Origin: Paraburkholderia sprentiae WSM5005 | Lineage (GTDB): Bacteria; Pseudomonadota; Gammaproteobacteria; Burkholderiales; Burkholderiaceae | NCBI RefSeq assembly: GCF_001865575.2 | Contig: NZ_CP017562.2 | Coordinates: forward strand, 124,001 to 188,000 | DNA length: 64,000 bases | Direction: 5' to 3' | Part shown: piece after piece, positions 9,695 to 38,300 of the stretch | Numbering within the stretch: the first letter of the stretch is position 1 | Layout of the letters: each line of letters starts with the position of its first letter | Translations under genes and position numbers: made by a program | Notes under the pieces: model-generated | What the model saw: the letters and a program-made list of their open reading frames with translations, nothing else | Database searches by the model: none | Told to the model about the DNA's origin: nothing

Positions 9695-9722
9695 GAGCCG
9701 AAGGCTCGTGGCCGGTCCGGCC
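9695..9722. terminator. Two adjacent short hairpins
   Basis: GAGCC-GAA-GGCTC (9695-9707) is followed at once by GGCCGG-T-CCGGCC (9710-9722), both perfect inverted repeats. They lie between two minus-strand genes. There is no T-rich tail, so they may act in transcript stability or as a pause site rather than as a true intrinsic terminator. Confidence 0.35.
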
Positions 9723-9737
9723 TTGCACGCACCGAGG

Positions 9738-22174: not shown

Positions 22175-22175
22175 C

Positions 22176-23027
22176 TCAGTCTCCTTCGAACGCGGGACGG
22201 GTCTTCGCCGCGAACGCGTTGTACGCGCGCTCGAAATCGCGCGTGCCCATGCAGATCGCCTGTGCTTGCGCTTCGGATTCGATCGCCTCGTCGATGCTCA
22301 TGCTCCACTCCTGGTGCAGCATCTTCTTCGTCATGCCGTGCGCGAAGCTTGGGCCAGCCGCGAGATCGGCGGCGAGCGTGTGCGCTTCTTCGACGAGCGC
22401 GGCCGGGTCGCACAGGCGGTTGTAAAAGCCCCATGCGTGAGCCTCTTCGCCGCTTGCCGAGCGGCCGGTGAACAGCAGCTCGGCGGCGCGTCCCTGGCCG
22501 ATGATGCGCGGCAGCATCGCGCATGCGCCCATGTCGCAACCGGCGAGGCCGACGCGCGTGAACAGGAACGCGAGCTTGCTGCGCGCGGTGCCGAGGCGCA
22601 GGTCGGAAGCCATCGCGAGGATCGCGCCGGCGCCCGCGCAGACGCCGTCGACGGCTGCGATGATCGGCTGCGGGCAATGGCGCATGGCCTTGACGAGGTC
22701 GCCGGTCATGCGCGTGAACAGCAACAACTCGGGCATCGGCAAATCGACCAGCGGCGCGATGATGTCGTGCACGTCGCCGCCCGAGCAGAAGTTCTCGCCC
22801 GCGCCGTGCAGCACGACGGCTTTGACGTCGGTCGCATAGGCGAGATCGCGAAACAGGTCACGCAGCTCCGCGTACGATTCGAAGGTCAGCGGGTTCTTGC
22901 GCTCGGGGCGGTTCAGCGTGATCGTCGCGACCTTGTCGGTCACCGACCAGCCGACATGCTTCGCGTCATAGCCAGCCAGGGTCAGGCGGTTGCCGGCCAA
23001 CAGTGCGTCGGCGTTGGATCGTGTCAT
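22176..23027 (-). CDS. Enoyl-CoA hydratase/isomerase family protein
   Basis: 283-aa crotonase-fold enzyme. The first oxyanion-hole segment is [16 protein letters not shown] and the second [21 protein letters not shown], followed by [25 protein letters not shown], where the family's catalytic acid usually sits (here GCD). Strong ribosome site GGAGG before the ATG at 23027. The MarR gene ends 19 bp upstream and the acyl-CoA dehydrogenase starts right after. Probably hydrates or opens the alicyclic ring intermediate of the anthranilate pathway. Confidence 0.9.
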
Positions 23028-23046
23028 GTGTTCCTCCGGTGCGAAG

Positions 23047-23607
23047 TCAGCCTTTCAGGCTGTCGAGCAGATGCTGTTTGAGCTTGCCGAGATCCTGATG
23101 GGTATGCATCTTCTCGTCGAGGCTCAGGCCGCCGAACATTTCGACCACCCATTGCTCGTGCGCGACGGCCATCCTGTCGAACGCCTTGCGGCCAGCGGGC
23201 GTCAGGCACACGCTGATTGAGCGGCGGTCGCTCGGATCGGTATCGCGCGCGACGAGTCCTTCTTTTTCGAGCTGATCGGTGATGCCCGTGACGTTGCCTC
23301 CCGTCACCATCAAACGGCGCGACAACTCGGTCATCTTCAGGCCTTCGGGATGGCGTTCGAGTTGCGCCATCAAATCGAAACGCGGCAACGTGGTGTCGAA
23401 TTCGGTACGCAGGCGTTTGCGCAATTCAGCCTGCACGAGGTTGGTGGTAGTCAACATACGCAGCCACAATCGCAGGCCCATGTGGCTGTCCGCACCGGTG
23501 CTCATTTCGAGGTCCACGACGTTCTCCGCGGGTTCGGCGATGCCTTTGCGCGACGGTTTCGGATGCGCTGCCGCCGCCGGCTTTTTTGCTTGCGTTGATT
23601 TGCTCAC
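23047..23607 (-). CDS. MarR-family regulator inside the anthranilate operon
   Basis: 186-aa winged-helix regulator starting with GTG at 23607; the start overlaps the SDR stop (ATGTGAGC), so translation is coupled. The first about 35 residues are a Lys/Ala/Pro-rich tail. The MarR core follows ([83 protein letters not shown] order) with recognition helix and wing. Regulators of this sort in CoA-dependent aromatic operons usually sense the aryl-CoA ester. A palindrome around the operon's -35 box is its probable target. Confidence 0.9.
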
Positions 23608-24371
23608 ATCACTTCTCCACCGGAAATGGAAATGGCTTGCCCGGTGATCGCATCCGAGCCGGGGCGGCACAGCCACAACACCGCGTTTGCGACCTGCTCC
23701 GGACTCACGACGCGGCGCTGCGGGTTCGAGCGCAGCAGCGTTTCGCGGGCCTGTTCTTCGGTGCGCGAGGTCTTGCTCGTGATCTGCTGGAGTGACGCAT
23801 GCAGTAGCTCGGTTTCGGTATAGCCGGGGCACACCGCATTGACCGTGATGCCGCGCGTCGCGGTTTCGAGCGCGAGCGAGCGCGTGAGACCGATCACGCC
23901 ATGCTTCGCGGCGCAATACGCGGCGACGTACGCATAACCGATTTGCCCCGCGGTGCTCGCGACATTGACGATGCGGCCATAGCCGCGCTCTAGCATGCCG
24001 GGCAGTACAGCGCGAGTGCCGAGGAACACGCCGGTCAGATTCACGTCGAGCATCCGTTGCCACAGCGCGATATCGGTGTGCGTGAACGGCGCGGCCTGCG
24101 CCTGCCCCGCGTTGTTGACGAGGATATCGACGGCGCCCGCCTGATCGAATGCGCGCGCCACCGAGTCTTCTTGCGTGACGTCCACGCTGATACACGCGAC
24201 GTCGCCCAGCGCCGCGCATTGTTCGCGCTGAGCGTCGAGGCGTTGCACGTTGCGGCCCATCAGCGTGATGCGCGCGCCGGCGTGCAGCAGCGTGTGCGCG
24301 ATAGCCGCACCGATGCCGCTGCCGCCGCCGGTGACGACCGCATGTTGTCCGGCAAGAGCGGTATCTGACAT
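23604..24371 (-). CDS. SDR-family 3-hydroxyacyl-CoA dehydrogenase-like
   Basis: 255-aa short-chain dehydrogenase. Motifs: TGGGSGIGAAIA (NAD binding), NNAG, catalytic Ser in VNVASTAGQIG, YCAAKHG (YxxxK) and CPGYTETELL. The ATG at 24371 is spaced well from AGGAA; a GTG at 24377 overlapping the previous stop is the alternative. It resembles beta-hydroxybutyrate dehydrogenases, so it likely oxidises a beta-hydroxyacyl-CoA intermediate. Overlaps the MarR gene by 4 bp. Confidence 0.9.
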   Translation of the reverse strand: MSDTALAGQHAVVTGGGSGIGAAIAHTLLHAGARITLMGRNVQRLDAQREQCAALGDVACISVDVTQEDSVARAFDQAGAVDILVNNAGQAQAAPFTHTDIALWQRMLDVNLTGVFLGTRAVLPGMLERGYGRIVNVASTAGQIGYAYVAAYCAAKHGVIGLTRSLALETATRGITVNAVCPGYTETELLHASLQQITSKTSRTEEQARETLLRSNPQRRVVSPEQVANAVLWLCRPGSDAITGQAISISGGEVM

Positions 24372-24373
24372 GT

Positions 24374-26758
24374 TCACACAGTTCCTTCGGCGCGCTGCGC
24401 GCGTTGTTGCGCCGTGAGGCCGGCGTTGGCGATGGCCTGCGCGCGCTCACGTTCGAGGTTGCGTTCGAGCTGTATTTTCGCGGCGGTGTAGGGCTTCGGC
24501 CACGCGACGTCGAGATAGCCGATCTTTGCCGCTTCGTTCAAGGTCCACGACGGATTCGCGAGATGCGGACGCGCGATCGCGCACAGATCGGCGCGGCCCG
24601 CGGCGATGATGCTGTTCACGTGGTCCGCTTCCGAGATCGCGCCGACCGCAATCGTCGCGATGCCAGCTTCGTTGCGCACGCGATCGGCGAACGGCGTCTG
24701 GAACATTCGGCCGAACACGGGCTTTTCTTCCTTGCTGACCTGGCCCGACGACACGTCGATCATATCCGCGCCCGCCGCCTTGAACGCTTGCGCGATCTTC
24801 ACGGCGTCGTCGGGCGTGTTGCCGCCTTCGACCCAGTCGTGCGCGGAAATCCGCACGGATATCGGCTTATGTTGCGGCCACACCGCACGGATCGCGTTGA
24901 ATACTCGCAGCGGATAACGCAGACGGTTTTCGAGCGAGCCGCCGTATGCGTCGGTACGGTGATTCGTAAGCGGCGACAGGAAGCTCGACAGGAGATAGCC
25001 GTGCGCGCAGTGCAGTTCGAGCCAGTCGAAGCCCGCTTCGATCGACATGCGGGTCGCCTCGGCGAACTGCTCCTCGATGGCGCGCAGCTCCTCATGCGTG
25101 GCTTCGCGCGAATGCTGGCTGATACCGCGCAGATACTGCTGCGGCGACGCCGAAATGAGTGGCCAGTTGCCTTCGTCGAGCGGCTGATCGATGCCTTCCC
25201 ACGCGACGCGCGTCGAGCCTTTCGCCCCCGAGTGGCCGAGCTGGATACCGATCTTCGCATCCGATTGCAGGTGCACGAGATCGACGATGCGCTTCCACGC
25301 GGCCAGATGCTCGGTCGCATACATGCCGGGACATCCCGGCGTGATGCGCGCTTCGGGCGACACGCAGGTCATCTCGGTCATCACAAGCGCGGCGCCGCCC
25401 ATTGCACGCGCGCCGAGATGCATCAGGTGATAGTCGCCGGCCACGCCGTCTACCGCCGAGTACTGCGCCATGGGCGACACCATCACGCGATTCTTCAGCG
25501 TGACGCCGCGCACCTTGAATGGCGTAAACATCGGCGGAATCGAATGCCTGTCGGCGGCGCGCTCGACGCCCGCGCGCTTCGCGAGCCAGTCTTCGAAACC
25601 GGACAGATACTGCGAATCGCGCTCGCGCAGGTTCTCGTGCGAGATGCGCTGGGAGCGCGTGAGCAGCGAATACGCGAACTGTTCCGGCTCGAACGACGTA
25701 TAGCGGTCGACGTGCTCGAACCATTCGGTCGAATTGCGCGCGGCGTTCTGGATGCGCAGCACGTCGACGCTGCGCACTTCGGTGTAGTGCTTCAAGGCGG
25801 CGGCAAGATCGTTGGGATGCGAAGCCGAATGCGCGCTGATGCTGTTCGCGAGTTCGATCGCGTCTTCGAGCGCGAGCTTGGTGCCCGAGCCGATCGAAAA
25901 GTGCGCGGTATGCGCGGCGTCGCCCATCAGCACGATCGGCGTTTGCGTGCCGTTCGGGTTGGCGCGCCAATGCACCCACTCCCTGTTGACGACGCGCGGA
26001 AAACGGATCCATTGCGACGAGCCGCGCAGATGCGCCGCGTTCGACATCAACGCGTTGCCGTCGAGGTACTTCGCGAACAGCTTCTCGCAGAACGCGATGC
26101 TGTCTTCCTTGCTCATTTCGTCGAGACCGGCGGCGCGCCATACGCGTTCCGGCGTTTCGACGATGAACGTCGACGTTTGATCGTCGAAGCGGTATGCGTG
26201 CGCCTGGAACCAGCCGAATTCGGTTTGCTCGAACGCGAACGTGAATGCGTCGAACAGCTTCTTCGTGCCCAGCCACACGAAGCGGCAGTCGCGCACGTCG
26301 ATGTCCGGCTGATAGGTGTGGGCGTATTTCTGGCGCACGAGGCTGTTCAGGCCGTCGCTCGCGATGATCAGGTCCGCTTCATACGTGCTGTCGTCCATGA
26401 CCTGGGTTTCGAACACGAGCTTCACGCCGAGTTCTTCGCAACGCGCCTGCAGGATATTCAGCAGTCGTTTGCGGCCGATGCCGCAAAAACCGTGGCCCGA
26501 CGAACGCACGCTACGGCCGCGAAAATGAATCTCGATGTCGTCCCAGTGATTGAACGCGCCGAGAATCGCGTCGGCGCTCGGCGCGTCGGCGGTGCGCAAA
26601 TTGCCTAGGGTCTGGTCGGAGAATACGACGCCCCAGCCGAAGGTGTCGTAGGGGCGGTTGCGCTCGATGACGGTGACGTCATAGCCGGGGTTGCGTTTTT
26701 TCATCAACAGACTGAAGTACAAACCGGCCGGACCGCCGCCGATACAGACTATGCGCAT
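24374..26758 (-). CDS. abmA: Anthraniloyl-CoA monooxygenase/reductase (two-domain flavoprotein)
   Basis: 794-aa fusion and key enzyme of the operon. Residues about 1-385 are a class A flavin monooxygenase: GGGPAG at 7-12, and [25 protein letters not shown] for FAD/ribityl binding. Residues about 395-770 are an old-yellow-enzyme FMN domain ([49 protein letters not shown]). This domain order is that of 2-aminobenzoyl-CoA monooxygenase/reductase of Azoarcus evansii, which hydroxylates and then reduces the ring of the CoA ester. Salicylyl-CoA 5-hydroxylase/reductase is a related possibility. First gene of the operon. Confidence 0.92.
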
Positions 26759-26794
26759 GCTGATTCCCCAAAAAATGGACTCTGCTATGCGATT

Positions 26795-26830
26795 AATTTA
26801 GGTTTTGATAGTTTAGATGTCAAGTAAACT
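26795..26830 (-). promoter_or_regulatory. Sigma-70 promoter with MarR-type palindrome for the anthranilate operon
   Basis: On the minus strand: -35 TTGACA (26818-26823), 17-bp spacer, -10 TAAATT (26795-26800), about 37 bp from the ATG at 26758. A perfect inverted repeat AGTTTA-N9-TAAACT (26810-26830) has the -35 box exactly inside its 9-bp spacer. A bound dimer would block RNA polymerase. The MarR protein encoded in the same operon is the likely ligand-responsive repressor. Boxes and palindrome are seen directly; regulator identity is inferred. Confidence 0.75.
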
Positions 26831-26860
26831 TTGAATGAGAGTATCAGCACGACTGGTAGC

Positions 26861-26887
26861 GATGATCCTGGAAATAAAAAGTGTCAC
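26861..26887 (+). repeat. Left copy of 17-bp inverted sequence bounding the island
   Basis: TGATCCTGGAAATAAAA followed by AGTGTCA. The same 17 bases followed by CTGTCA occur inverted at 34495-34519. The layout recalls terminal sequences of IS21-type elements, from memory. The copies may be scars of one insertion sequence present twice, with the DNA between them captured. Confidence 0.6.
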
Positions 26888-27341
26888 TGGCGCATAAAGA
26901 GCGTCACGGCACCCGGCAAGGAACTAAGAGAGCAATTGTCGGCACCCATTAGTGGGCCGGTGTCAAGTGAGCAATCCACATCCCCGGCTGCACCAGTAGC
27001 CGTTTCCCAGTTCTCCGAATGCAGCAGCCAACCGCGCCCGTTTCTTCGTTTGCTGGCTGCGACGGAACGCGCCAGACACCCATCTGGATCAAGCGAAGGG
27101 CAATACTGCGGGTGCCTTTCGCCTCGGCGGCCATGCCGCCCCGGAAGAACTTTGGTGCCGTAATGCGTCCATGGGGTTCGCACAATTGCGCGGGCTGCCG
27201 GGTTGTCGGCGCCAATCCACAGCTGGCTCGCATTCCGATCCGCTTTTACTGCATATCGGGGACGGCGGCACGGCATCCCATTCAATCTCGGTGGCTGTTC
27301 GCCAGTCAACGATCAGGGCTTGCCGGTCGCCGTCGAAACTC
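26888..27341. other. Non-coding/decayed stretch next to an IS110 remnant
   Basis: No convincing gene. Open frames of about 100-140 codons exist on both strands but have no ribosome site, no recognisable motif and Cys/Arg-rich random-looking composition. GTGTCAC and GCGTCAC repeats near the left edge look like insertion-sequence end structure. Best read as mobile-element debris. Confidence 0.5.
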
Positions 27342-27873
27342 TTATGAGAAGCAGCGCGTCATATCGAATGGTTTGTGCTCCTTCAGCATATGGAAGCATG
27401 CGCGGGCGAGCTTGTGCGCCAAGGCCTTGCGCGCCAGGATGGTATTGGTCTTGCTTTTCTTTCGCTCGTAGAAACGTTTGGCCTCGGCGCAATAGCGCCG
27501 CGCAAAATTGGCCGCTTCGATGAACGCCCAGGACAGATACGGGTTGCCATTCTTTGCGTTGCCTTCGCCTTTCTTTTTGCCGTTGCTTATGCGCTGGCTG
27601 TCCACGCACCGCGCATAGGACGCGAAGTTACCGGCGTTGGCGAAACGCTCGATGGTGCCAACCTCCAGCAGAATGACAGTCGCAAGGGTTTGGCCGATGC
27701 CCGGCACCGTGGTCAGCAGGTTGTAGTCCGCGTCTGGCGCGAGCTTTTGTTGAAGACGCTTTTCCACGATAGCGATCTGCCCGGAGAGCGTCGTGATGAC
27801 CGCGACGTTGGCCCGAAGCGCGAGTGCGACGTCTTCTGGCAGGCGCATTTGTTTGATCGTTACCACTCGGCAA
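27342..27873 (-). pseudogene. IS110-family transposase, C-terminal half only
   Basis: Conserved IS110/IS116/IS902 C-terminal domain: TVPGIGQTLATVILLEVG with the helix-hairpin-helix-like core, FANAGNFASYARCVDSQRISNGKKKGEGN, NPYLSWAFIEAANFARR and ending KPFDMTRCF. The N-terminal DEDD catalytic domain is absent: homology starts near the Met at 27848, and the region directly abuts the stop of the VWA-like gene at 27874. So this is a truncated, inactive copy left at the edge of the island. Confidence 0.88.
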
Positions 27874-28743
27874 TTACCAGGACAGTGGCTCAAGCAGCGC
27901 AGGCTCGCCGAACTCGACGAGCCGCGCGTTCGAGCGCGAAAAATACCCGCTCCAGAACTGCTTCAGATCCAGCAATGTCTTCGGGTCTCGATAGCCGTTA
28001 CGCGCGGACGTCGATCCGTTGGCGGCCGGCTGCATGACACCGGTTCCCAGGACATAGATTCGCGCCGAGCCGAAATCACCAAAAAGATTGTTGTCCTGCG
28101 CCTTCTTCAGTTCGACGTCGGGATTGATGTGTCGCACGGCATTACGTGCATAGAAGCTGGTCACACTTGAGTTCTCCAGCCCGTCCGTGACGACGAAGAC
28201 CAGCTTGCGCGCGACCTTTTCCTGGGCGACGGCGGGTGACACGCTCTTCAGCGCCATCAGAATGTCCGACTGATCCAGGTTCGATGTCCCTGACTTCAGT
28301 ACCTGTGCGGTCGTTGCCACCGCGAGTCGCTGGCCGTACACCAGTTGCTGCAGCATGCAGGTGTGGAAGTCCCGGAGGCGGCTCATCACGACATTGCCTT
28401 CCTCGGCCGGAGGAATCGGACGCTCGATGACGCCTGTATGCAGCACGTTCAGATAGTGCCCTTGCGAAAATGCCGAAAATTCAGCGATGACGAACTTCGT
28501 ACCGGCCTTCAGCATCGACTGAACGTTGTCGAGCACGGATTTCTGCAACGTCGCGTCGAGCAACACAGTCTGGTCGATCAGCACATAGATGAGTTGATCG
28601 TACGGGGCTTGCGGCGGCGCGATTTTGTTGGCTGCATAGCAACTGGGGACGTCGTTCGTCAGGCCCGCGTGAGCGGGCAGTGCAGCCGATAGCGCGAGGC
28701 AGGTGAAGGCGAAGGAGCGCAGTACCTGGATCGATCGGCGCAT
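27874..28743 (-). CDS. Secreted VWA-like protein of three-gene envelope module
   Basis: 289 aa with a Sec signal peptide (MRRSIQVLRSFAFTCLALSAALPAHA, cleavage after residue 26). The mature part looks like a von Willebrand A-type fold: first strand LIYVLIDQTV (51-60) with Asp in MIDAS-like position but D-x-T rather than the usual DxSxS, and KLVFVVTDGLENSSV (180-194) with the typical TDG strand end. Cys35 and Cys129 may form a disulphide. Its ATG overlaps the stop of the membrane-protein gene (ATGA), so the two are coupled. No family name recognised. Confidence 0.8.
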   Translation of the reverse strand: MRRSIQVLRSFAFTCLALSAALPAHAGLTNDVPSCYAANKIAPPQAPYDQLIYVLIDQTVLLDATLQKSVLDNVQSMLKAGTKFVIAEFSAFSQGHYLNVLHTGVIERPIPPAEEGNVVMSRLRDFHTCMLQQLVYGQRLAVATTAQVLKSGTSNLDQSDILMALKSVSPAVAQEKVARKLVFVVTDGLENSSVTSFYARNAVRHINPDVELKKAQDNNLFGDFGSARIYVLGTGVMQPAANGSTSARNGYRDPKTLLDLKQFWSGYFSRSNARLVEFGEPALLEPLSW

Positions 28744-30335
28744 CAGATGTCTCCGAGGATGTCGTCTTCGAGACGCGCCTGTTCGGCGGCAGCCTTGCGG
28801 TGCGCCTTGAGGGCCTGGACGGCGGCGAGGATCGAACTGCGACGTTCGGCCGAATCCTCGGCGGCGATGTCGAGAATCACCTTGCGGCGCTCCTGATCGG
28901 GCTCATCGAGAATACGTTCCGCGATTCGTGCGACGTCACTGAAGAGCGGGAGTGCTTCTGCCACCTGTGCCACATTGACGGATTCCCGCGAAGCGGACCG
29001 TTGCGCGGGTTGCCCCAAAGCAGGGGATACAGCAGCGGCATCGGTTTGTTGCGTGTGGCGAGCGGCTGGCGTGAGAGCTGCTTCCTCTTCCACCTTGCGT
29101 CTGTAGTAGTCGTTGCAACTGACTTTCGATACGTTTTCGCGGTACTTCGGCACTTCACGACCGAGGTGCGAACGAAGCTCTGTCAACCGCATGTTGCCCC
29201 GATCGAGGGCAGGCTTGATGTGCTTCGCCTGGTAGCTCTGAAAGCTGGTGTGGCCGAATGTCTGCCGATAGGCGTTCTTGCCGTCACCGATGAACGAACT
29301 GCCGAAAGCCTGGAAGAATCCAAGAGCCTGTGTGATCACGTAGATGATCGCGAGGACGATTGCGCCAGCGATGCCCTGACTGAACATCTCGCTGCTCAGT
29401 TCGTGGTCGACGGTCTGCTGTGCAGCGCGCGACGAGTCGGCCACATCGGTCGGCATCGGTGTCGACGCATCGAGACCCGGCACGGCAGCGAAGGGATTGC
29501 TGCCGCCGCTTGTTGCCAACTGGCCGTGATCGGCGACATGATTCGTCATCTCGATCTGCAGGCCCTTGATCCGCATCCACGTGATGCCGATCAGAAGAAC
29601 GGCCAGCAACGTGATGGCGACGATCGGCACGACGAGGCTGCCGCGATCATGCGCACCTTCCAGCACGCGGCTGCCGAAGCGCACCTTGGGCGATGCGTCT
29701 TTGTCGACCTGCTGGTCGTCGCCGCTGCTGATCTTGTGACCCGTATAACCTTCAACCGTCGCATTGACCGAACCGAGCGCCTTTTTGATAGCTGAGCGCT
29801 TGTACACCGCGGCGCCTGCCGCGTGAGTCAACCCGAGCAGACCGACGGCCATCACGGTTGCGATCACATAGCCGATCCAGACCATCTGGTTGCCGGTGAT
29901 TTCGCTGGCCACGAAAGGCGCAATGAGCATCCCTGTACCGGCCGCTTCCGCGATCGTCAACAGGATCAGTGCGACAAACATGAACGCCGACATCGGCGAG
30001 CGTCCATTCTGGTGAGTAATCTTGAGATACTCGCTCGCGCGCTCGAACACCCTTTGATCCACCTTCGGCAGCTTGTCGATATAGGTGGAGCACAGCGACT
30101 CTTCCGCGGGTGGCAGGCCAGCGTCCTTCCACGTCGCCACATTTTCAATGCCGTGGGTTTGCTGTTTCCAGCGGCGCATTTTGCCAACCAGCGGGACGCA
30201 AACCCAGAAGTCAGCCCACCAGAGGTCGTCGGTATAGCGCTTCCACACGAAAAAGAGTGTCACGACAGCCGCAATCAGAAGTGGCAGCGACCACACGATC
30301 GTGGAGACAAAAGCCTGGAGAAAATCGGTTATCAC
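28743..30335 (-). CDS. Five-TM inner-membrane protein of three-gene envelope module
   Basis: 530 aa. Hydrophobic segments at about 9-31, 115-138, 150-175, 233-255 and 320-342. Between segments 4 and 5 is a roughly 60-residue polar stretch, probably periplasmic. The C-terminal 180 residues are hydrophilic, charged and partly helical (RRKVEEEAA, ERRKVILDIAAEDSAERRSSILAAVQALKAHRK), probably cytoplasmic. It does not look like MotA/ExbB, TssM or a known transporter. It lies 43 bp after the OmpA-lipoprotein gene and overlaps the VWA-like gene. Confidence 0.8.
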   Translation of the reverse strand: MITDFLQAFVSTIVWSLPLLIAAVVTLFFVWKRYTDDLWWADFWVCVPLVGKMRRWKQQTHGIENVATWKDAGLPPAEESLCSTYIDKLPKVDQRVFERASEYLKITHQNGRSPMSAFMFVALILLTIAEAAGTGMLIAPFVASEITGNQMVWIGYVIATVMAVGLLGLTHAAGAAVYKRSAIKKALGSVNATVEGYTGHKISSGDDQQVDKDASPKVRFGSRVLEGAHDRGSLVVPIVAITLLAVLLIGITWMRIKGLQIEMTNHVADHGQLATSGGSNPFAAVPGLDASTPMPTDVADSSRAAQQTVDHELSSEMFSQGIAGAIVLAIIYVITQALGFFQAFGSSFIGDGKNAYRQTFGHTSFQSYQAKHIKPALDRGNMRLTELRSHLGREVPKYRENVSKVSCNDYYRRKVEEEAALTPAARHTQQTDAAAVSPALGQPAQRSASRESVNVAQVAEALPLFSDVARIAERILDEPDQERRKVILDIAAEDSAERRSSILAAVQALKAHRKAAAEQARLEDDILGDI

Positions 30336-30378
30336 GTTCGAGCCCCGCGGTTATTGGTTGTTAGTTGTTAGTTGGTTT
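30336..30378. repeat. Short heptad-like repeats between OmpA and membrane genes
   Basis: The spacer reads as tandem AACTAAC units on the minus strand (about two full and one degenerate copy) directly after the OmpA stop codon. It is AT-rich for this genome. Length changes here could alter translation of the membrane-protein gene, but nothing else is evident. Confidence 0.5.
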
Positions 30379-32064
30379 TTAGCGAAGTGCGAAGTTGCCC
30401 GACGCGGTGTAGTCCACCGATCGGTTCGTGTAGTACACATTGCCCGTCGCGCGAGGCTTGCTGACCGGTACGACCAGATCCATGCACTGCATCGGTCCGC
30501 TTACGAAAACCCGATAGAGCGTAGCGTCGCTGCCGCGATACACGTTGACGGGAACCCGGGCGGAGTACGAGGGTTTCTGGCTTACATTGCCGAGGTAGTC
30601 TTTATAGATTTTGAGTTCTGGCTCGGGTACAGGGCTGCCGGCATCACTAGGCACGCGTACGTCGAGCAGTGCGATCAGGTTGCCGCCGAGTCCCGCTGCC
30701 CATGGAGCGCCGTAAAAGCCCGGCAGGTAGTCGCGAACGTTCAGCGCTTGGTCAGTGGCGAGATTGCGCACGGCGGATGCGACGTGCGGGCGATCCCCCA
30801 GGCACGAGTTGAGAGTCATGGGCGAGCCGGCGTTCGCATTGCTGATCAGACTGAACGACGACGACTTTGCGGGAGCCGAACCGAGGCGCACCGGAATCCC
30901 GCCACCCGCAGTCGGCGTGCCGCCGAAGTCGTAACCCGATCGTTCATCGGTAGCACCTGCTGTGGCCTGCGACGGGGCTACGGATGCAGGCGCAGCAGTG
31001 GCTGCGGCCCGTGAGCTTGCGCTAACTTCCGTCTTGATGTTGCCCGGGCTGCCTGTTTTCGCGACGGTTGTCGGCTTCGATCGCGGTTTGATGGTTGTTT
31101 TGCCCGTTGTCGCGTGGGTAGCGGCCGTGGGGGTGACCGTGTTAGTGCGCTCGCCCAAGGGCGTCTCTTGCGGTGACGCCGTGTTTAGGTTGGCGAAGCG
31201 ATAGTTGGCCGGGTCAGCCGTGCGGGCAGACAGGAATTGTTGCAGGTCCGCTTCCGTTGGAACATCAACAATCTGCACGCGCCGGTTTTCCTCGCGTCCC
31301 TGATCTGTCGTATTCGGCGCGATCGGTAGCGTGTCGCCCGCACCTTGGTAGAACATGTTCTGGACAGGCACGCCCTGATCTACAAAGACCTTGGCGACAG
31401 CTTTCGCTCGTTCCTGTGAGAGCGCCGCAGGATCCGCGCCGAGCGACGAATCGTTTTCGTCGGTGTGTCCGACGATCAGCACTTTGTGCGAGCCTGCCTG
31501 CGCGCGCTGCTCGGGCGTAGCGTTAGACGGCAGCGCTGCCAGTAGTGTTTTCGGTGAGTACTGGTTGGCGATTTGCGCCAGGTATTTGCGTGCCTGCGGA
31601 GTCAATTGCGCCGTGCCCGCGACGAACTCGTCGGATTTGTTTTCGAGCTGGACGTCGAGGCCAACTGTCGCTGGTTTGTCGGCGGAATTGGCACCGCCTG
31701 ACTTAGCCTGAGTGATTGGGGCCGACGCCAGTTTCAGGCCATTCGCCTGCGCGATCCTGTACAGCTCGCAGCGGCGAGCGTCTAACGCGTGGCCGACCAG
31801 AAAGCCACCGCCCGCCCCGATCACGACGCCAGCTGCAGCTCCTTTTGCGCCGTGCGCCAGATAGCCGATTACACCGCCGGCTACGGCACCAACGGCAATG
31901 CCAATATTGCGGTCATTGTTTGAGCAGGGGTTTTCGTTATTGAAAATGCTGTTGAACTGGGTCTTAACGGAAGCAGCAACTTCCGGTTGACCGGTTTGCG
32001 GGTTAATGGCACATCCCGAAACACACAGAGCCACGCCCAGCACGATGGGGCTGCGAATCGTCAT
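30379..32064 (-). CDS. OmpA-domain lipoprotein of three-gene envelope module
   Basis: 561 aa. Lipobox VSGC (Cys18). Residues about 52-95 form a glycine-zipper segment (NIGIAVGAVAGGVIGYLA...GAAAGVVIGAGGGFLVGHAL). The OmpA C-terminal peptidoglycan-binding domain covers about 135-268: VLIVGHTDENDSS, LSQERAKAVAKVFVDQGV and GREENRRVQI. A Thr/Ser/Ala/Pro-rich linker (about 275-370) leads to a 190-residue C-terminal domain I cannot assign. Together this suggests an outer-membrane protein that grips peptidoglycan, partnered by the downstream inner-membrane and secreted proteins. First gene of the set. Confidence 0.87.
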   Translation of the reverse strand: MTIRSPIVLGVALCVSGCAINPQTGQPEVAASVKTQFNSIFNNENPCSNNDRNIGIAVGAVAGGVIGYLAHGAKGAAAGVVIGAGGGFLVGHALDARRCELYRIAQANGLKLASAPITQAKSGGANSADKPATVGLDVQLENKSDEFVAGTAQLTPQARKYLAQIANQYSPKTLLAALPSNATPEQRAQAGSHKVLIVGHTDENDSSLGADPAALSQERAKAVAKVFVDQGVPVQNMFYQGAGDTLPIAPNTTDQGREENRRVQIVDVPTEADLQQFLSARTADPANYRFANLNTASPQETPLGERTNTVTPTAATHATTGKTTIKPRSKPTTVAKTGSPGNIKTEVSASSRAAATAAPASVAPSQATAGATDERSGYDFGGTPTAGGGIPVRLGSAPAKSSSFSLISNANAGSPMTLNSCLGDRPHVASAVRNLATDQALNVRDYLPGFYGAPWAAGLGGNLIALLDVRVPSDAGSPVPEPELKIYKDYLGNVSQKPSYSARVPVNVYRGSDATLYRVFVSGPMQCMDLVVPVSKPRATGNVYYTNRSVDYTASGNFALR

Positions 32065-32221
32065 TCAAGTCCTTATATAGATCCGAAGGCCAGGCCTCTC
32101 TACCTGTCCAACCAGCAGGCGCTAGACCGGAGTTGATTTGTGGGTCTCAGCACACGAATATGGGTTAACGGCATAAAGTCGTGCGTCTTTAGCGCACTCA
32201 TCCACACAAGTGCGATGCGTG

Positions 32222-32247
32222 CGGTTCAATTCAATGAAAATGAACCG
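32222..32247. promoter_or_regulatory. Inverted repeat upstream of the OmpA module
   Basis: CGGTTCA (32222-32228) and TGAACCG (32241-32247), perfect 7-bp arms with a 12-bp spacer, lie about 160 bp upstream of the OmpA-lipoprotein start and about 105 bp upstream of the H-NS remnant. A possible operator. The surrounding 32065-32353 stretch holds no gene and no clear promoter boxes. Confidence 0.35.
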
Positions 32248-32353
32248 TATCGTCGGCAATGCATCTATTCCTGACGTTTTGACTCCTGTTGCACTAGTAT
32301 GCAAATTGAATCGTGCTTCATAGTGTGAGCGTTACACATTCAACCGGGGGATC

Positions 32354-32519
32354 GTGGCGACGTTTGATAAGGTACAGACCCAAATCGCAAAACGGCAGGC
32401 GTCACGCAGATGCGCTCATCAAGAAGCAGTCGTCGGCCGTTATTGGCAAGATCCGCGACCTGATGGACAGGCACGGATTGACTGTCGCAGATATCGATGC
32501 CTACGGTGGCGGCAAATGA
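32354..32519 (+). pseudogene. H-NS-family N-terminal fragment with frameshift
   Basis: Reading from GTG at 32354: MATFDKVQTQIAKRQA, then, one frame over, ADALIKKQSSAVIGKIRDLMDRHGLTVADIDAYGGGK and a stop. Joined, these match the oligomerisation region of Burkholderia-type H-NS proteins. A single extra base near 32399-32403 explains the shift. The C-terminal DNA-binding region (the RGRP/KYR-type part) is absent, because a TGA follows the GGGK. So the gene is both frameshifted and truncated. Confidence 0.7.
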
Positions 32520-32638
32520 TTGTCCAGCCGCGACGACCGCCCGCACCAGTCCGCCGGGTTTGCCCTAGGAGCGCTGCGCCGGAGAGTGGCCGCACGAACC
32601 GGGAGTTGCATCGTTTCGCGCGGCCTGAACTAGCTGCG

Positions 32639-33100
32639 CTAGATTTCAGTCTGCTCCGAAATCTCAAGCGCGTCGTCGACTTCGATGCCAAGGTACCTGA
32701 TTGTGTTTTCGATCTTGCTATGGCCGAGCAGTAGCTGCACCGCCCTCAGGTTCTTGCTGCGTTTGTAAATCAGGGTTGCCTTGGTACGGCGCATCGAATG
32801 CGTGCCATAAGCTGTCGGATCAAGCCCCGCGGCGTCCGCCCATCGACGTATCATTCTGGCGTATTGCGGGGTTGCAAGATGCGGGCACGCCGATAGTCGA
32901 CTTGGGAAGAGATACTGCTCCGACTTCAGGGCAGCCTTCTCAAGCCACGCGCCGACCGCCTTCCGGGTCGACTCGGTTAGTTAAAACTGGACGGGGCGTA
33001 GTGTCTTTCGCTGAATCACTCGCGCCCTCGACAGGATCTGATTGCCGTGCGTGACATCGCGGACTCGCAGACTGACAAGATCCACAAGAAAGAAACGCAG
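32639..33100 (-). pseudogene. Tyrosine-recombinase (phage-type integrase) remnant
   Basis: The C-terminal catalytic part reads LTESTRKAVGAWLEKAALKSEQYLFPSRL ... THSMRRTKATLIY (HxxR) ... LLGHSKIENTIRYLGI (GH...Y nucleophile). Immediately upstream, in frame, is DLVSLRVRDVTHGNQ...RVIQRKTLRPVQF followed by TAA (32981-32983), where an intact gene would have Glu. The first catalytic Arg region (normally SKLRGCDLV) is deleted. So the gene has an internal stop and a deletion, and belongs to the decayed mobility genes of the island. Confidence 0.8.
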
Positions 33101-33464
33101 ATCATGGTTTGCGTGTCGCGTGCGAAATCCGCGGAGCTGGTTCTCGATCTTTGAGTATCGCCGGCGCGGTACGAACGCGTCTAGCACCGCTCGACGCGTT
33201 TTGGGGGTCGTCGCTCGGACGCAGAAAAACACCTTGAATCCCGGCATCAGCCGCGAGCGTCGCTTGATGGCCTCCAGCGCGCCCAATTAGAAAAGCCCCC
33301 GCCGAGGGGCAAAAATCCTTGAATGCAGTTCTGCATGCTGGTTCTCATTCAGAAAGTCCTGACGGCTGAAACCAGCGCTTCCTGAGACGACATTCCGGCC
33401 GGCGCCGATTGGACGCACGCACCGATCTCCATAGCATCGATTCATCGTATATCGAAGGGAAATC
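33101..33464. other. Stretch without a supported gene
   Basis: Upstream continuation of the integrase remnant. The minus frame to 33286 stays open but shows only Arg-rich, unrecognisable sequence. Nothing else is visible apart from AAGGGA before the next gene at 33465. Confidence 0.5.
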
Positions 33465-33989
33465 ATGGCTGGCAACAGATCACTGCGTTCTGAGGTTGAA
33501 AAACTCGTTGGCCCGACGCGGTGCCGCGGGGCGTGCGTGCGTCTGCTGGACCGCTCCCGCTCGGATGGAACATGCCGCGTGTACATTCAATTCGATCGGC
33601 CGACCGGGACATGTTCACTCTTCTTTTTTCGCCATGCCGACCCCACATGGCACGTGTTTCCGCCGGGCCAGCGCCTTCCGGAAATGGGGATAGGCCGCCT
33701 GGCTGCCTGGCCGTTCAGCAAGCTGCGCGCGTGGCTCAGCGACTGGCACGACCATGCCTTCGCCGCGGGCTGCATCCATCCGATCGATTCAGCCCTTCAT
33801 GAAACAATTGGCGCTCTGCAGTTCCAGGCGGCAGAGACCATTGCTCCAAAAACGGTGAAGTCAATCAATGAAACATCACATTGTCGGGCGTTATCGCGGA
33901 TTCGTTATCGAAGCGCACATGGAGCCGCGAACGGCCCGTTTGTCCGATGGAATCGCGCTGACATATCGCGTCACGTGGTCGTTACGTAG
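33465..33989 (+). CDS. Unknown small protein in the island
   Basis: 174 aa, with AAGGGA well placed before the ATG. The first about 135 residues look like a real folded domain (CRVYIQFDRPTGTCSLFFFRHADPTWHVFPPGQRLPEMG, AWLSDWHDHAFAAGCIHPID). The last about 40 residues overlap the next gene in another frame and look random, so a natural stop may have been lost or the end may be a frameshift. No family recognised. Confidence 0.5.
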   Translation: MAGNRSLRSEVEKLVGPTRCRGACVRLLDRSRSDGTCRVYIQFDRPTGTCSLFFFRHADPTWHVFPPGQRLPEMGIGRLAAWPFSKLRAWLSDWHDHAFAAGCIHPIDSALHETIGALQFQAAETIAPKTVKSINETSHCRALSRIRYRSAHGAANGPFVRWNRADISRHVVVT

Positions 33990-34152
33990 AAGGACGCGAA
34001 AACAATACGTCGCCGGTGACTTCGCCGATCCCGTTACATACGAATCGGAAAGCGTTGCTCTCACGTGCATCGACCGCGAGGCTCGCGCTCTTATCGATGC
34101 CATGCTGGCAAATCACGCCGAGCACACGCCAGGCGATCTTCTGCAAACTTGA
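33868..34152 (+). CDS. Unknown small basic protein in the island
   Basis: 94 aa (MKHHIVGRYRGFVIEAHMEPR...). Beta-rich start (YRGFVIEAHMEP, IALTYRVTWSLRRR) and a C-terminal helix (CIDREARALIDAMLANHAEH). It overlaps the end of the preceding frame by 122 bp. Codon use looks coding, but the ribosome site is weak. No family assigned. Confidence 0.5.
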   Translation: MKHHIVGRYRGFVIEAHMEPRTARLSDGIALTYRVTWSLRRRTRKQYVAGDFADPVTYESESVALTCIDREARALIDAMLANHAEHTPGDLLQT

Positions 34153-34899
34153 ATGCAGAGAAATTCAAATCTTGCTTAGATTCAAGGGGTCGAAGAGCGT
34201 CCGGTCTTAGCCAGTCCTCAGGTCCTTGACTCGCCTTGTTGAGATCACGATGCGATGTATCGTCGGGCACTTGCCGATCTGTGGGAGGAAGAATCTAGGC
34301 GCGCGTGATCGCCACTAACGCAGTCTCACCGCATGCAGCGTGGGACATCTGGCCGTAAAATCGCCTCGCTGCTGATGTTATGAAGGGTCGCCGGTTCACG
34401 CTTTTAGTTTTTCATTCATCGATCAAGGTGGCCTACAAGTCGCCGTTTGACATTTTTGGTCGAATCTTAAGGTTCAGCGTAGATGCGGCGCTGTTCTGAC
34501 AGTTTTATTTCCAGGATCAGCGATGCGCCGCCCGCGTCCTGTTGAGCGCACCGCACACGTCCGGCACGCCGCGACGGCCAGCGCGAGGCCCACGCCGAGC
34601 GCGCCGCGCACAGTCCGGACGCTTATCGGAAAGGTGCTCCATCGAAAGCTGCCTGACTGCCAACGCGGGGTGCAGTAGCCACTTCTGCCGCGGCAGACGC
34701 ACGCCGGCATTGATTGACTGTCGAGGCGTCTGGCGGTTCAGGGGCAGACAGTAGCCGATGCTCCAGGACCCGCGTTGTCGGGATCGCTAGGCGATGTTGC
34801 TCTCATTTGCGTAGAGCGGGGCGGCTTGACGCTGATTGACCTGGTTTTGCTTGCCTGGTCGATCGCACGACGGCGGCTGATGTGATTTGCCTTAGGGAT
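34153..34899. other. Gene-poor right edge of the island
   Basis: No supported gene over about 750 bp. It holds TTGAAT/ATTCAA inverted elements just after the last small gene and the right inverted 17-bp copy at 34495. To its right is an Arg/Ala-rich minus-strand frame (to about 34710) that may be insertion-sequence debris. The region between here and the SDR gene is presumably the join to core chromosome. Confidence 0.5.
34495..34522 (-). repeat. Right copy of 17-bp inverted sequence bounding the island
   Basis: The reverse complement reads TGATCCTGGAAATAAAACTGTCAG: identical over 17 bases to the left copy at 26863, then TGTCA in both. The two copies face each other 7.6 kb apart. Confidence 0.6.
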
Positions 34900-34924
34900 A
34901 AGAAAGGGCACCGGCTTACGGTGC
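34900..34924 (-). terminator. Intrinsic terminator downstream of the SDR gene
   Basis: Read on the minus strand: GCACCG-TAAGC-CGGTGC, a perfect 6-bp stem with a 5-nt loop, followed by CCCTTTCTT. It starts 11 bp beyond the SDR stop codon, as expected for a terminator of the SDR transcript. Confidence 0.7.
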
Positions 34925-34935
34925 TCCGAGGCATA

Positions 34936-35643
34936 CTAGTGACCGGCGCTCTGGCCGCCATCGACGTGCAGGATCTCCCCCGTGATGAACGGTGCGGAGT
35001 CCAGAAACAGAATCGCGTCGGCGATATCGCTCATCTCGCCCATGTGCCCGAGCGGATGGAAGGCGCCCAGCGCTTCATGCGTTTGCGGCGCGTGCATCGG
35101 CGTCTTGATGATCCCCGGCGCGACCGCATTGACGCGAATACCTTTTCTTGCGTATTCGATCGCCAATGACTTCGTGGCAGCGTTCAGCCCCCCCTTGGTC
35201 AGGGCTGCCAGTACGGAATACACGCCGCTGATCGCAGCGTCGACCGCGCTGGAGGTCACGCTAACCACGTGGCCGCTCGAATGCTTTTCCATTTCGGCAA
35301 TGGCAAGCTGTGTGATGTGATAGAAACCCGCGATATCTACATTGACCACCGCGGCATAGTCTTCGGTGGAATGTTGGGTAAAAGGCTTCCCAATGTAGAT
35401 GCCGGCGTTGTTCACGAGCGTATCGATCCGGCCAAATCGTGCGACACCTTCGGAAACGACCCGTTGGGCGGTTGCCGGATCGCCAATATCACCGGCAACG
35501 GTCAGGACGTTCGGGTCGTCCGACGGCTTGATGGAACGCGAAGTCGCAACAATGCGGTAATCGAGCTTGCGAAACGCGTTGACGACTTCCGCACCAATGC
35601 CCTGCGATGCACCGGTAACGACAACAACCTTTGACGTGCGCAT
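34936..35643 (-). CDS. SDR-like protein lacking the YxxxK catalytic Tyr
   Basis: 235 aa from the ATG at 35643 (MRTSKVVVVTG), which has CAGGG upstream; a longer frame to 35748 is unlikely. The Rossmann motif TGASQGIGAEV and LVNNAGIYIG are intact. The active-site stretch reads SSAVDAAISGVYSVLAALTKGG: the Lys is there, but the residue four before it is Ala, not Tyr, and the only Tyr lies eight residues before the Lys. I recall a divergent SDR subfamily with this pattern. It may be a non-catalytic NAD(P) sensor or use a displaced Tyr. Transcribed with the NmrA-like gene upstream. Confidence 0.85.
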   Translation of the reverse strand: MRTSKVVVVTGASQGIGAEVVNAFRKLDYRIVATSRSIKPSDDPNVLTVAGDIGDPATAQRVVSEGVARFGRIDTLVNNAGIYIGKPFTQHSTEDYAAVVNVDIAGFYHITQLAIAEMEKHSSGHVVSVTSSAVDAAISGVYSVLAALTKGGLNAATKSLAIEYARKGIRVNAVAPGIIKTPMHAPQTHEALGAFHPLGHMGEMSDIADAILFLDSAPFITGEILHVDGGQSAGH

Positions 35644-35748
35644 GCTTTGCCCTGGAAATGATTGTTCAGCTTCAACGCCGATCGGGCTGACGACACCGAT
35701 CCAAAGCGAAAGTCGATGCAATGATTCAGGTGTCGCACAGACCTGCAA

Positions 35749-36501
35749 TCAACTCTTGCTGGCCTGCGCCAGCCACTGGTCCAGGCCGACGCGGCCGATC
35801 CGCGCGTCGCCGAGCGGCACGAGCGACTGTTCCTCGACACGGCCACCGTAGTACCGCGCCTCGCGATCCGTCACTACCGGGCGTGCGTCGCCGACCGACT
35901 TCAGATAACGTGCGACGATCTCCGCGAAGGGCGCACGGTCCGGGCCGGCGATCTCGACTGTGCCGTTCAGCGGCGCGGCGAGCGCGATCTGCGCGAGGAA
36001 CGCCGCAACGTCGTCCGCGGCGATCGGCTGAAACAGTCCGTCGCCGACGCGCACCGTGCCGCCGTCCGTGCTGAAATCCGCGATACCGCCGATGAACTCC
36101 ATGAACTGTGTCGCGCGCACGATCGTGTACGGCACGCCCGCCGCTTCGATCGCCTCTTCCTGCGCGACCTTGGCAACAAAGTACGCGTTCTCGGGCGTGC
36201 GGTCGCATCCGACGATGGAAAGCGCGACGTGATGGCGTACCCCCGCGGCCACTTCAGCCTTGCCGAGGTTGCGCGCCGAGCTGCGGAAAAAGTCGAGCAC
36301 TGCCTGGGGCTCCCATGACGGCGCATTCGTCACATCCACGACGACGTCCGCTCCCGCGAGCGCGTTGTTCAGTCCTTCGCCGGAAACGGCGTTGACGCCG
36401 GTACGTGGCGACGCGGCGAGCGCTTCATGGCCCGCTTCGCTGAGCAGCGTGACGAGGCGCGACCCGATCAGGCCGAAACCACCCATTACGACGATCTTCA
36501 T
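35749..36501 (-). CDS. NmrA-like NAD(P)-binding protein
   Basis: 250 aa from the ATG at 36501, which has GGAG upstream. The N-terminal GGFGLIGSRLV dinucleotide-binding motif is followed by an atypical-SDR fold (VVVDVTNAPSW, HHVALSIVGCDR, YTIVRATQFMEF), as in NmrA/YwnB-type quinone or redox-sensor reductases. It lies upstream of the SDR-like gene and divergent from a MocR regulator, which probably controls the pair. Confidence 0.87.
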   Translation of the reverse strand: MKIVVMGGFGLIGSRLVTLLSEAGHEALAASPRTGVNAVSGEGLNNALAGADVVVDVTNAPSWEPQAVLDFFRSSARNLGKAEVAAGVRHHVALSIVGCDRTPENAYFVAKVAQEEAIEAAGVPYTIVRATQFMEFIGGIADFSTDGGTVRVGDGLFQPIAADDVAAFLAQIALAAPLNGTVEIAGPDRAPFAEIVARYLKSVGDARPVVTDREARYYGGRVEEQSLVPLGDARIGRVGLDQWLAQASKS

Positions 36502-36620
36502 GACAGATTCTCCAGAGAAAACAATGAACGCGCGGGTGCGCCTGGCCGGCGTTCGATGGCGTGAAAGTGTTCGCCGCCGTCCCATCGCATGCGCTTATTG
36601 TGGAAGAATCATGCCCTACC

Positions 36621-36640
36621 GATAAGTGCCAAGAATTATC
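36621..36640. promoter_or_regulatory. Inverted repeat GATAA-N10-TTATC in divergent region
   Basis: Perfect 5-bp arms lie in the 188-bp region between the divergent NmrA-like and MocR genes, about 50 bp before the MocR start. A candidate operator only. Confidence 0.3.
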
Positions 36641-36689
36641 GATCCGACTAGTCCATGTTGTTTCCGCTGCCGTTGCCCGCGAGCCTGCC

Positions 36690-38219
36690 ATGACCTTGCC
36701 GATTTCCAAATTGAAGATCGAAATCGATCGGCGGCAGTCGTTGCCGATCTATCTGCAGATTTGCGACCGTTTCAGGACCGCGATCGCTTCGGGGCATTTG
36801 CGTCCCGGCGATCGTGTGCCCGCGCTGCGCGGTCTCGCCACGCAGCTGAACACGGCGCGCGGCACGGTCGAGCTGGCCTACACGATCCTCGTCGACCAAG
36901 GCTACCTGCAGATGCGTGGCGCGGCGGGCACGTTCGTATCGCCGTCGCTGCCGGCATCGGTGATGCAGGCTTCGCCTGGTCAAGTTCTTCGGGAAAGGCA
37001 AGGTCCGCTGCGCAACGAAGCGACGGGCACGCCGACTACGCCAGACGCATCGCGCGGTGCTCAACCTGCGACGCGCCAGTTGGCCATCGCCGTCGCCATG
37101 AGCGGCGAGCCGCGGCCATTGCAACCCGGGCTGCCCGCGCTCGACGCGTTCCCGAGCAAGGTATGGAACCGGCTCGTTGCGCAGCGCGCGCGCAGCGGTG
37201 AACGCGCGATGCTCGCATACCCGGATCCGGCCGGCTACCGGCCGCTGCGCGAACACATTGCGACCTATCTCGGGCTGTCGCGCGGCGTGACCTGCCTGCC
37301 GGAACAGGTGTTCATTACCGGCGGCTACCGCGCGACGCTCGAACTCGTGTTGCGCAGTCTCGCGCGCCCGGACGATCGCATGTGGTTCGAGGATCCGGGC
37401 TATCTGCTCGCACGCGGTTTTCTGGCCGAGACCGGCGTGCAGCTCGTGCCGGTGCCGGTGGATGGCGAAGGGATCGTCGTCGAGCGCGGCACACAGCTGG
37501 ATCCGCAGGCGCGCTTCGCACTGGTCACGCCGTCGCATCAGAGCCCGCTCGGGCACACGCTATCGCTCGCAAGACGCCTGGCGTTGCTGGACTGGGCGGA
37601 AAAAGCCTCCGGCTGGATCATCGAAGACGACTACGACAGCGAGTTCCGTTATGCGGGTCGGCCGTTACCCGCGTTGAAGAGCCTCGACCGGCGCGATCGC
37701 GTGATCTATTGCGGCACTTTCAGCAAGGTGATGTTTCCCGGTTTGCGGCTCGCGTATGCGGTAGTGCCAGAGCGGGCCGTCGAGCGTGTCGGCCGGGTGG
37801 CGCATAGCATGAACGCCGGCTCGCCGTCGATATGGCAGGCGGCCGTGGCGGATTTCATCAGGCAGGGACATTTTGCGCGGCATCTGAGGCGAATGCGCGC
37901 GTTGTACGCCGAGCGGCGCATGCTGATCGTGCGCGCGCTGGAACAGGCGTTCGGGGAGCGGCTGATGGTCGATTTGCCGCCCGGTGGAATTCAGTTCGCG
38001 GTGCGATTCGCCGAAGGTCCGGGTGGCCCGGCCGACGACGTCGCGGTCGCCTCGCGTGCCCGCGAGGCTGGGCTCGGGGTATTGCCGCTGTCGATCTGGT
38101 ACGCGAACGACCGCACGCGGCACACGCCGCGCGGTCTCGTGATGGGCTTCGCGAACATCGCCGATGCGGGTGAAGCGGGCCGTCTCGCCAGAACGTTGCG
38201 GGCGTGTCTGGACGGCTGA
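36690..38219 (+). CDS. MocR/PdxR-type regulator (GntR HTH + aminotransferase fold)
   Basis: 509 aa from the ATG at 36690 (MTLPISKLKIEIDRRQSLPIYLQI), which matches family N-termini; a longer frame starts at 36561. GntR winged helix at about residues 15-80 (GHLRPGDRVPALRGLATQLNTARGTVELAY). Aminotransferase-like domain at about 135-500 with IIEDDYDSEFRY and YCGTFSKVMFPGLR (PLP Lys). Divergent from the NmrA/SDR pair, the likely targets. Confidence 0.92.
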   Translation: MTLPISKLKIEIDRRQSLPIYLQICDRFRTAIASGHLRPGDRVPALRGLATQLNTARGTVELAYTILVDQGYLQMRGAAGTFVSPSLPASVMQASPGQVLRERQGPLRNEATGTPTTPDASRGAQPATRQLAIAVAMSGEPRPLQPGLPALDAFPSKVWNRLVAQRARSGERAMLAYPDPAGYRPLREHIATYLGLSRGVTCLPEQVFITGGYRATLELVLRSLARPDDRMWFEDPGYLLARGFLAETGVQLVPVPVDGEGIVVERGTQLDPQARFALVTPSHQSPLGHTLSLARRLALLDWAEKASGWIIEDDYDSEFRYAGRPLPALKSLDRRDRVIYCGTFSKVMFPGLRLAYAVVPERAVERVGRVAHSMNAGSPSIWQAAVADFIRQGHFARHLRRMRALYAERRMLIVRALEQAFGERLMVDLPPGGIQFAVRFAEGPGGPADDVAVASRAREAGLGVLPLSIWYANDRTRHTPRGLVMGFANIADAGEAGRLARTLRACLDG

Positions 38220-38300
38220 CACGCGCAGCGTTGGGTGCAACGCAGTTGAGTCGAGACCCCGCTTCGACTATGTCAGGAAGCCAATATGGCTCGAGCTGAA

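Follow-up and report, generated by a model that had tools for sequence, protein, structure and literature searches.

We analysed a 64,000-nucleotide stretch of Paraburkholderia sprentiae WSM5005 (contig NZ_CP017562.2, positions 124,001 to 188,000; the whole stretch is called the window below) and in it three adjacent genes of the minus strand, each an intact open reading frame (ORF). They encode an outer membrane lipoprotein with an OmpA domain (gene 1, 561 amino acids (aa), 30379-32064), a five-transmembrane (5-TM) inner-membrane protein with a GTG start (gene 2, 530 aa, 28743-30335) and a secreted VWA-like protein (gene 3, 289 aa, 27874-28743). Together the three genes form a real, widespread and apparently mobile module that stands outside every system tested. 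We see about an even chance that it is an undescribed accessory trans-envelope assembly, an adjustable and probably energised connection of the inner membrane with the wall and the outer membrane. This reading is drawn from the recurrence of the triad, the correlated distances of its proteins, the borders of the cassette, purifying selection, buried polar residues and a profile match to VWA domains, together with a sister VWA clade adjoining FlgP/FlgT-like genes and the replacement of 5-TM tails by zinc ribbons or HTH_17. The module is compact, it occurs in three phyla and is carried by plasmids as well as by chromosomes; of its three proteins, two lie outside named families.

An earlier note on this DNA had described a tight operon with a 43-bp gap followed by an ATGA overlap. 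The gap between genes 1 and 2 is indeed 43 bp (30336-30378), but genes 2 and 3 overlap by a single nucleotide, in TGATG. A 5' leader (32065-32198, minus strand) is kept with the genes, similarity to four relatives stopping at 32174-32198, and a consensus scan gave no sigma-70-like site in it. The module is more than a chance arrangement, because its gene set recurs and because its ratios of nonsynonymous to synonymous substitution (dN/dS) against the four relatives range from 0.06 to 0.29. Compared with loci L150, L021, L022 and L014, the values are 0.12-0.29 for the OmpA gene, 0.07-0.11 for the 5-TM gene and 0.06-0.13 for the VWA gene; hence the module is under purifying selection.

Related loci were collected by a genome scan with the VWA alignment, which gave 56 loci in named genomes (L020-L075). 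In 45 of the 56, one strand carries the OmpA, 5-TM and VWA genes in this order, each scoring above 50 bits by hidden Markov model, and this neighbourhood survey bears out the view that the genes co-occur as one module. Among the 11 other loci, four end at a contig edge (L024, L040, L042, L061), the OmpA match of L072 is weak (17 bits), the copies of L020 and L039 are degraded and L075 is a chance-like partial match. An apparent OmpA-5TM fusion in Nitrospirota (L069) was discarded, since an N-filled scaffold gap brings the two genes into one reading frame and the sister locus L071 has two genes; L069 is counted among the 45 despite the gap joining its first two genes. The triad is found in alpha-, beta- and gammaproteobacteria (Pseudomonadota), in Campylobacterota and in Nitrospirota, hence in three phyla. 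A Bacteroidota occurrence (the Emticicia metagenome-assembled genome of L040) clusters within the betaproteobacteria and could be a contaminant. Carriage by viruses was rejected as well, no relatives being found in viral contigs or phage records, and Pantoea DNA covering the 5-TM and VWA genes had no match in E. coli at blastn sensitivity.

Plasmid records matched the 5-TM protein in 16 cases and the VWA protein in 21, one of the latter a 43-aa remnant, and the triad was present in all eight plasmid-collection loci examined (L014-L019, L148, L149); an Aeromonas caviae record of this collection, 4.9 Mb long, is probably a chromosome. One module-bearing plasmid is typed conjugative. The triad of Cupriavidus pinatubonensis (L047) lies on a complete chromosome. 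The 5-TM protein is matched in at least 13 of the 299 genomes of the family, counting the own genome, with a truncated copy in one; the figure is a lower bound, since the scoring took in few candidates from each genome. A class-wide sample searched with the whole VWA alignment gave matches to the VWA family in 16 of 369 genomes, again with the own one. Several distinct module lineages exist within Paraburkholderia, a spread such as horizontal transfer would give. Two poorer copies were seen in this genus: P. dilworthii (L020 / L151; NZ_AWZT01000015.1) holds a degraded one with the C-terminal part of the 5-TM gene and the VWA gene, in which no OmpA gene was detected, and in P. phymatum (NC_010625.1, 695826-695954) only a 43-aa VWA match of 84% identity is found, likely a remnant.

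Distances between the proteins are correlated across 58 loci, with Spearman coefficients of 0.65 for VWA/5TM, 0.80 for VWA/OmpA and 0.74 for 5TM/OmpA, while the highest value among 1000 permutations of the Mantel test was 0.32. Furthermore, when positions 22001-40000 of the window were compared with L021, L022 and L150, the sole match ran in one piece from 32191-32198 to 27860-27875; the match with L014 ran from 32174 to 27874 in three pieces. Given these shared borders, a leader of about 110-130 bp goes with the genes, and the module seems to move as a cassette of ~ 4.3 kb, the flanks of the relatives differing from those of the window in a comparison made between each relative and the window.

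Gene 1 encodes, in this order, a signal peptide with a lipobox (C18), a glycine zipper (aa 54-97), the OmpA-like peptidoglycan-binding domain (aa 191-266; 31267-31494, minus strand), a low-complexity linker and a module-specific C-terminal domain (about aa 380-561; 30382-30927, minus strand). The lipoprotein proposed in the earlier note is borne out by the VSG|C18 site and by the match of the OmpA domain to PF00691 (aa 191-261; E 7.8e-15; 55.5 bits for a cut-off of 27.2), the only match of the three window proteins to exceed a Pfam cut-off. The glycine zipper named in the same note was matched too, yet with a score under the family cut-off. The OmpA profile matches structures of YfiB, Pal and MotB. 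Moreover, D202 is kept in 57 and R219 in 59 of the 59 relatives of gene 1, residues which we take to be the diaminopimelate-binding pair; domain match and conserved residues together place the protein among OmpA-like peptidoglycan-binding proteins. The C-terminal domain is conserved among the OmpA proteins of the module, with cysteines C421 and C527 each in 56 of 59 loci, and Pfam gives no match to it in the window protein. A lipobox-like pattern occurs within the first 130 aa of 44 of the 59 relatives, and 13 of the remaining 15 are lipoprotein-like by eye (e.g. LQGC, VNGC), L036 and L140 being the two that are not.

For the 5-TM protein no match at E 1 was obtained in Pfam, NCBIfam, PADLOC or PHROGs, and a profile search of PDB with its family gave nothing convincing (best E 0.012). 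When the 5-TM alignment was used for a further protein search, three half-length proteins came up in addition, but no name for the family. Averaged over 50 members, hydropathy places transmembrane (TM) cores near residues 21, 130, 161, 245 and 332, in agreement with the five segments first proposed; the run split two of these cores by single residues and each was read as one. Stretches rich in K/R occupy the loop after TM1, the loop after TM3 and the tail, so that the protein is read as N-out/C-in. The envelope-spanning topology that had been put forward for the three proteins finds support. The cytoplasmic tail ends acidic in the 5-TM protein, and in related loci it can be of another kind. 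Indeed, Pfam matched zinc ribbons in two of the 50 members and HTH_17 in one; by eye, zinc ribbons replace the tail in the Campylobacterota loci L059 and L063 as well as in L018, and a helix-turn-helix does so in L035. Other Pfam matches, in one or two members each, are weak (E 0.001-0.01) and concern unrelated membrane families. In L028 an extra ORF (9109-9954) stands between the 5-TM gene and the VWA gene, and the tail of the 5-TM protein seems to be shorter.

Four polar residues of this protein stand out by their conservation, all codons being on the minus strand: an acid in mid-TM2 (E130, 29946-29948; E in 64 and D in 2 of 66 aligned proteins), a histidine in the cytoplasmic third of TM3 (H171, 29823-29825; H 64, E 1, D 1 of 66), an arginine at the periplasmic end of TM4 (R255, 29571-29573; R in 66 of 66) and a glutamine in mid-TM5 (Q336, 29328-29330; Q 64, N 2, L 1 of 67). 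Such conservation would fit an ion path or a charge relay. Ion coupling of the module is thereby suggested, in our opinion as a tentative proposal to which we give somewhat less than even weight. A passive tether or scaffold, with the same complex, no ion flow and the buried polar residues simply holding the TM bundle together, is unlikely in our view. It agrees with the resemblance of a lipoprotein carrying an OmpA domain and a glycine zipper to wall-anchor lipoproteins, and with the lack of detected MotA/ExbB homology in the families compared. However, an acid in mid-TM2 of all 66 proteins and a histidine replaced only by acids would seem to go beyond the usual needs of packing, and the cytoplasmic tail, which varies through domain replacement, speaks against this reading too.

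The VWA-like window protein has nothing above the curated cut-offs of Pfam and NCBIfam, no match in PADLOC and a best E of 0.34 in PHROGs, and a PDB profile search with its family found nothing convincing (best E 1.3). The VWA assignment of the earlier note thus fails on the Pfam search of the single protein but holds when profiles are compared: the family aligned with 32 VWA_2 domains with an hhalign P of 3.3e-4 and a probability of 38.5%, in register at IDQT, FSAF and TDGLENSS, while five other hhalign pairings, the MotA test among them, had P values of 0.12-0.46. By this in-register similarity the family falls within the VWA superfamily, and gene 3 would be a remote VWA homologue. Positions resembling a metal ion-dependent adhesion site (MIDAS), namely D57, T/S59, S/T159 and D187, are present in all 79 loci, and a cysteine pair is nearly invariant (C35 and C129, each in 77 of 79). 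In a loose motif test 73 of the 79 proteins have an AxA-like site ahead of the first conserved CY, and a lipobox-like motif was seen in three.

Taken together, the three proteins probably form one complex. In such a complex the lipoprotein would anchor the assembly to the outer membrane and the wall, and the network of E130, H171, Q336 and R255 in the inner-membrane protein could act as ion pathway or charge relay. The VWA protein might then take up movement of the periplasmic TM4-TM5 loop, and through its metal site it would make a regulated contact with the C-terminal domain of the lipoprotein, and the cytoplasmic tail of the 5-TM protein would report or receive a signal. The net effect would be an adjustable link of inner membrane, wall and outer membrane that serves envelope maintenance or the response to stress. 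A bolder version of the proposal, which we regard as rather doubtful, is an ion-driven machine unrelated to MotAB, TolQR, ExbBD and ZorAB, with an ion path E130-Q336-H171 in the 5-TM protein, metal-gated transmission by the VWA protein, a grip through the OmpA lipoprotein and an exchangeable cytoplasmic sensor or output. To our knowledge, systems coupling wall and outer membrane with the inner membrane are few, and the known ion-driven ones use cores of the MotA/TolQ/ExbB type. With its defined residues to mutate, the module would allow a direct test of whether a second kind of trans-envelope energy transducer exists.

Several observations weigh against the trans-envelope reading. The genome scan relied on one peptide pattern (ENS..SFY), which favours the VWA clade of the module, and three loci (L057, L067, L074) hold the 5-TM and VWA genes with no OmpA neighbour detected. 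The 16 class-wide matches consist of ten members of a second VWA clade without the partners, four modules and two weak partial matches. Co-inheritance alone would correlate protein distances, and the Mantel test had no unrelated control gene. Conserved polar residues within a membrane can be structural. As for gene 3, the hhalign probability is low (38.5%), Pfam VWA_2 was reached by one of 50 members (E 0.002), and a complete MIDAS (DxSxS, T, D) is absent, the first motif being D-x-T with a variable third DxSxS residue.

The second VWA clade consists of ten gammaproteobacterial loci forming one branch in a quick tree whose root was not inferred (Shimodaira-Hasegawa-like approximate likelihood ratio test, SH-aLRT, 99), and neither the 5-TM nor the OmpA partner was detected in these loci. 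In eight of the ten (L141-L144, L146, L147, L161, L162) the VWA gene lies next to and divergent from FlgP/FlgT-like genes, and seven of those eight also hold a PilZ gene; Pfam matches in L143 are FlgT_N, FlgT_M, LPP20 and PilZ. Of the other two loci, L160 meets a contig end and L145 has another context. FlgP and FlgT form envelope rings of polar flagella. Therefore the VWA family also serves neighbours that resemble envelope rings, which fits a structural trans-envelope role, and the module in turn gives a lead to the function of this clade. By analogy, the module itself might assist motility as the adaptor of an envelope ring, flagellar or flagellum-like. The eight loci speak for this, but the clade is a distinct branch, its loci yielded neither gene 1 nor gene 2 and the flanks of the module loci that were examined gave no match to FlgP, FlgT or PilZ queries; we hold a motility role to be very improbable.

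A trans-envelope assembly of this kind invites comparison with Zorya, which likewise joins an inner-membrane protein with a cytoplasmic tail to an OmpA-domain partner, and with it an antiphage or competition system that would sense wall damage in a Zorya-like way. The 5-TM family is not MotA/ExbB-like: against eight MotA_ExbB proteins of the own genome the hhalign P was 0.3, within the range of unrelated pairings, and of the 18 Pfam families to which one or more of the 50 members had a match at E 0.01, none is MotA_ExbB. ZorB, in the excerpted text of PMC11890865, is a single-TM protein with a membrane aspartate (D24), whereas the OmpA partner of the module has a lipoprotein signal in place of an N-terminal TM helix with Asp, and the module has an additional VWA protein. 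Among eight nearby ORFs or remnants of the window, a Pfam scan gave no ZorC/D or ZorE effectors. Zorya was rejected on the missing MotA/ExbB homology and the lipoprotein signal, in line with the earlier note.

An antiphage function is still favoured by the patchy occurrence in the family and the plasmid-borne copies, by the score of the gene 1 OmpA domain against PADLOC ZorB models (E 3e-12, a score that OmpA domains may reach generally) and by single strong matches among 100 neighbouring proteins. The neighbour proteins came from related loci and were chosen from 135 candidates, with spurious ORFs possible among them. PADLOC models matched were 58, each by one member and with no background rate, and the 25 listed, ordered by number of members, include PDC-S08 (1.5e-132), type II methyltransferase (2e-73), endonuclease effectors (3e-23), PDC-S18, MzaA and IetA; some of the matched models are generic enzymes. 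Hence the statement that the setting is 'typical of defence or competition cargo' is not supported, no model having matched more than one neighbour. Furthermore, the module lacks an effector-like component, PADLOC matched neither gene 2 nor gene 3, and the sharing of neighbours among Cupriavidus loci and among Methylobacillus loci suggests that the module is stably kept there. We consider an antiphage role quite unlikely, and envelope maintenance ranks ahead of defence as a role for the module.

Operons of FtsZl1 (Tubulin_2), vWA and OmpA, for which membrane remodelling was predicted (Makarova and Koonin 2010, PMC2875224), are the nearest published idea. As far as the excerpted text of that paper goes, they combine vWA proteins, some of them secreted, with OmpA-family and TM proteins in several genomes. 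However, their hallmark Tubulin_2 (PF13809) is absent from the host genome, and it was not found in 47 of the 50 genomes of related loci, for which completeness is not stated. The three Massilia regions with Tubulin_2 gave no match to the three profiles of the module, and membership in the FtsZl1 system was rejected on both grounds.

A likeness to Tol-Pal, MotAB and ExbBD may lie in the proposed link of the module from an energised inner membrane to the wall and the outer membrane. The key Asp of the known motors belongs to the partner protein, whereas the buried acid of the module is in the multi-TM protein itself, and the inner-membrane part has no detectable homology to theirs. A literature search by titles and the beginnings of abstracts, with subscription papers and preprints largely outside its reach, gave no description of the module among the matches listed, and the earlier view that no named system has this composition agrees with what we found.

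In the window, the mobile-element scars that had been noticed around the genes were confirmed. On the downstream side an IS110-family transposase remnant (27342-27860, minus strand; PF02371, E 1.1e-17) starts ~ 14 bp past the VWA stop, and upstream lies a tyrosine-recombinase remnant with an in-frame stop (32642-33286, minus strand), whose downstream piece alone matches PF00589 (E 3.5e-13), its upstream piece giving no Pfam match. For the left-flank gene (24374-26758), 58 genomes of the genus were searched and eight of its neighbourhoods compared, all of which lose similarity within 10 bp of position 26828. One close relative, L174, the nearest by left-flank protein, resumes at 39530, so that 26829-39529 is a variable segment, 26828 and 39530 being contiguous there. 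The island setting of the earlier note is thus supported by 12.7 kb missing in L174, with the reservation that the segment may have been inserted here or deleted there. Besides the module and the IS110 and tyrosine-recombinase remnants, this segment contains SDR and NmrA-type genes, a regulator of the GntR/aminotransferase kind and part of a PAP2 gene. The latter (38301-40283) encodes a PAP2-type protein with a passenger-associated-transport-repeat match, and the similarity of L174 resumes within it.

Fourteen Pfam families were matched by at least two of the 100 neighbours, the commonest being LemA (5), followed by two pyridine-nucleotide oxidoreductase models and DUF218 (3 each) and, with 2 each, CAP, chemotaxis receptor, phage integrase, aldehyde dehydrogenase and others; families of GTPases or kinases were not among them. 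An accessory role in secretion or conjugation of plasmids and islands would agree with plasmid carriage and with the one conjugative plasmid, but such functions are absent from these 14 families, and we find this role scarcely probable at all.

Six loci have a LemA-like gene after the VWA gene (L039, L041, L044, L060, L061, L069), that of L041 having a weak zinc-ribbon match at its end. A CAP-family gene adjoins the module in five loci, several of them from Paraburkholderia, and in two orientations, downstream in L003, L020 and L021 and upstream in L016 and L026; L003 and L020 appear to be the same locus, which gives four distinct ones. In the own genome no match to this CAP-family partner was obtained, in a search without positive control. 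The CAP identity is from Pfam for L020 and from clustering with L020 for L021. The gene encodes a lipoprotein (L020, 10851-11891; L021, 10912-11895; L016, 9135-10115), and in L020 and L021 it occupies the place held in the window by the IS110 remnant, with a similar start by eye in L022.

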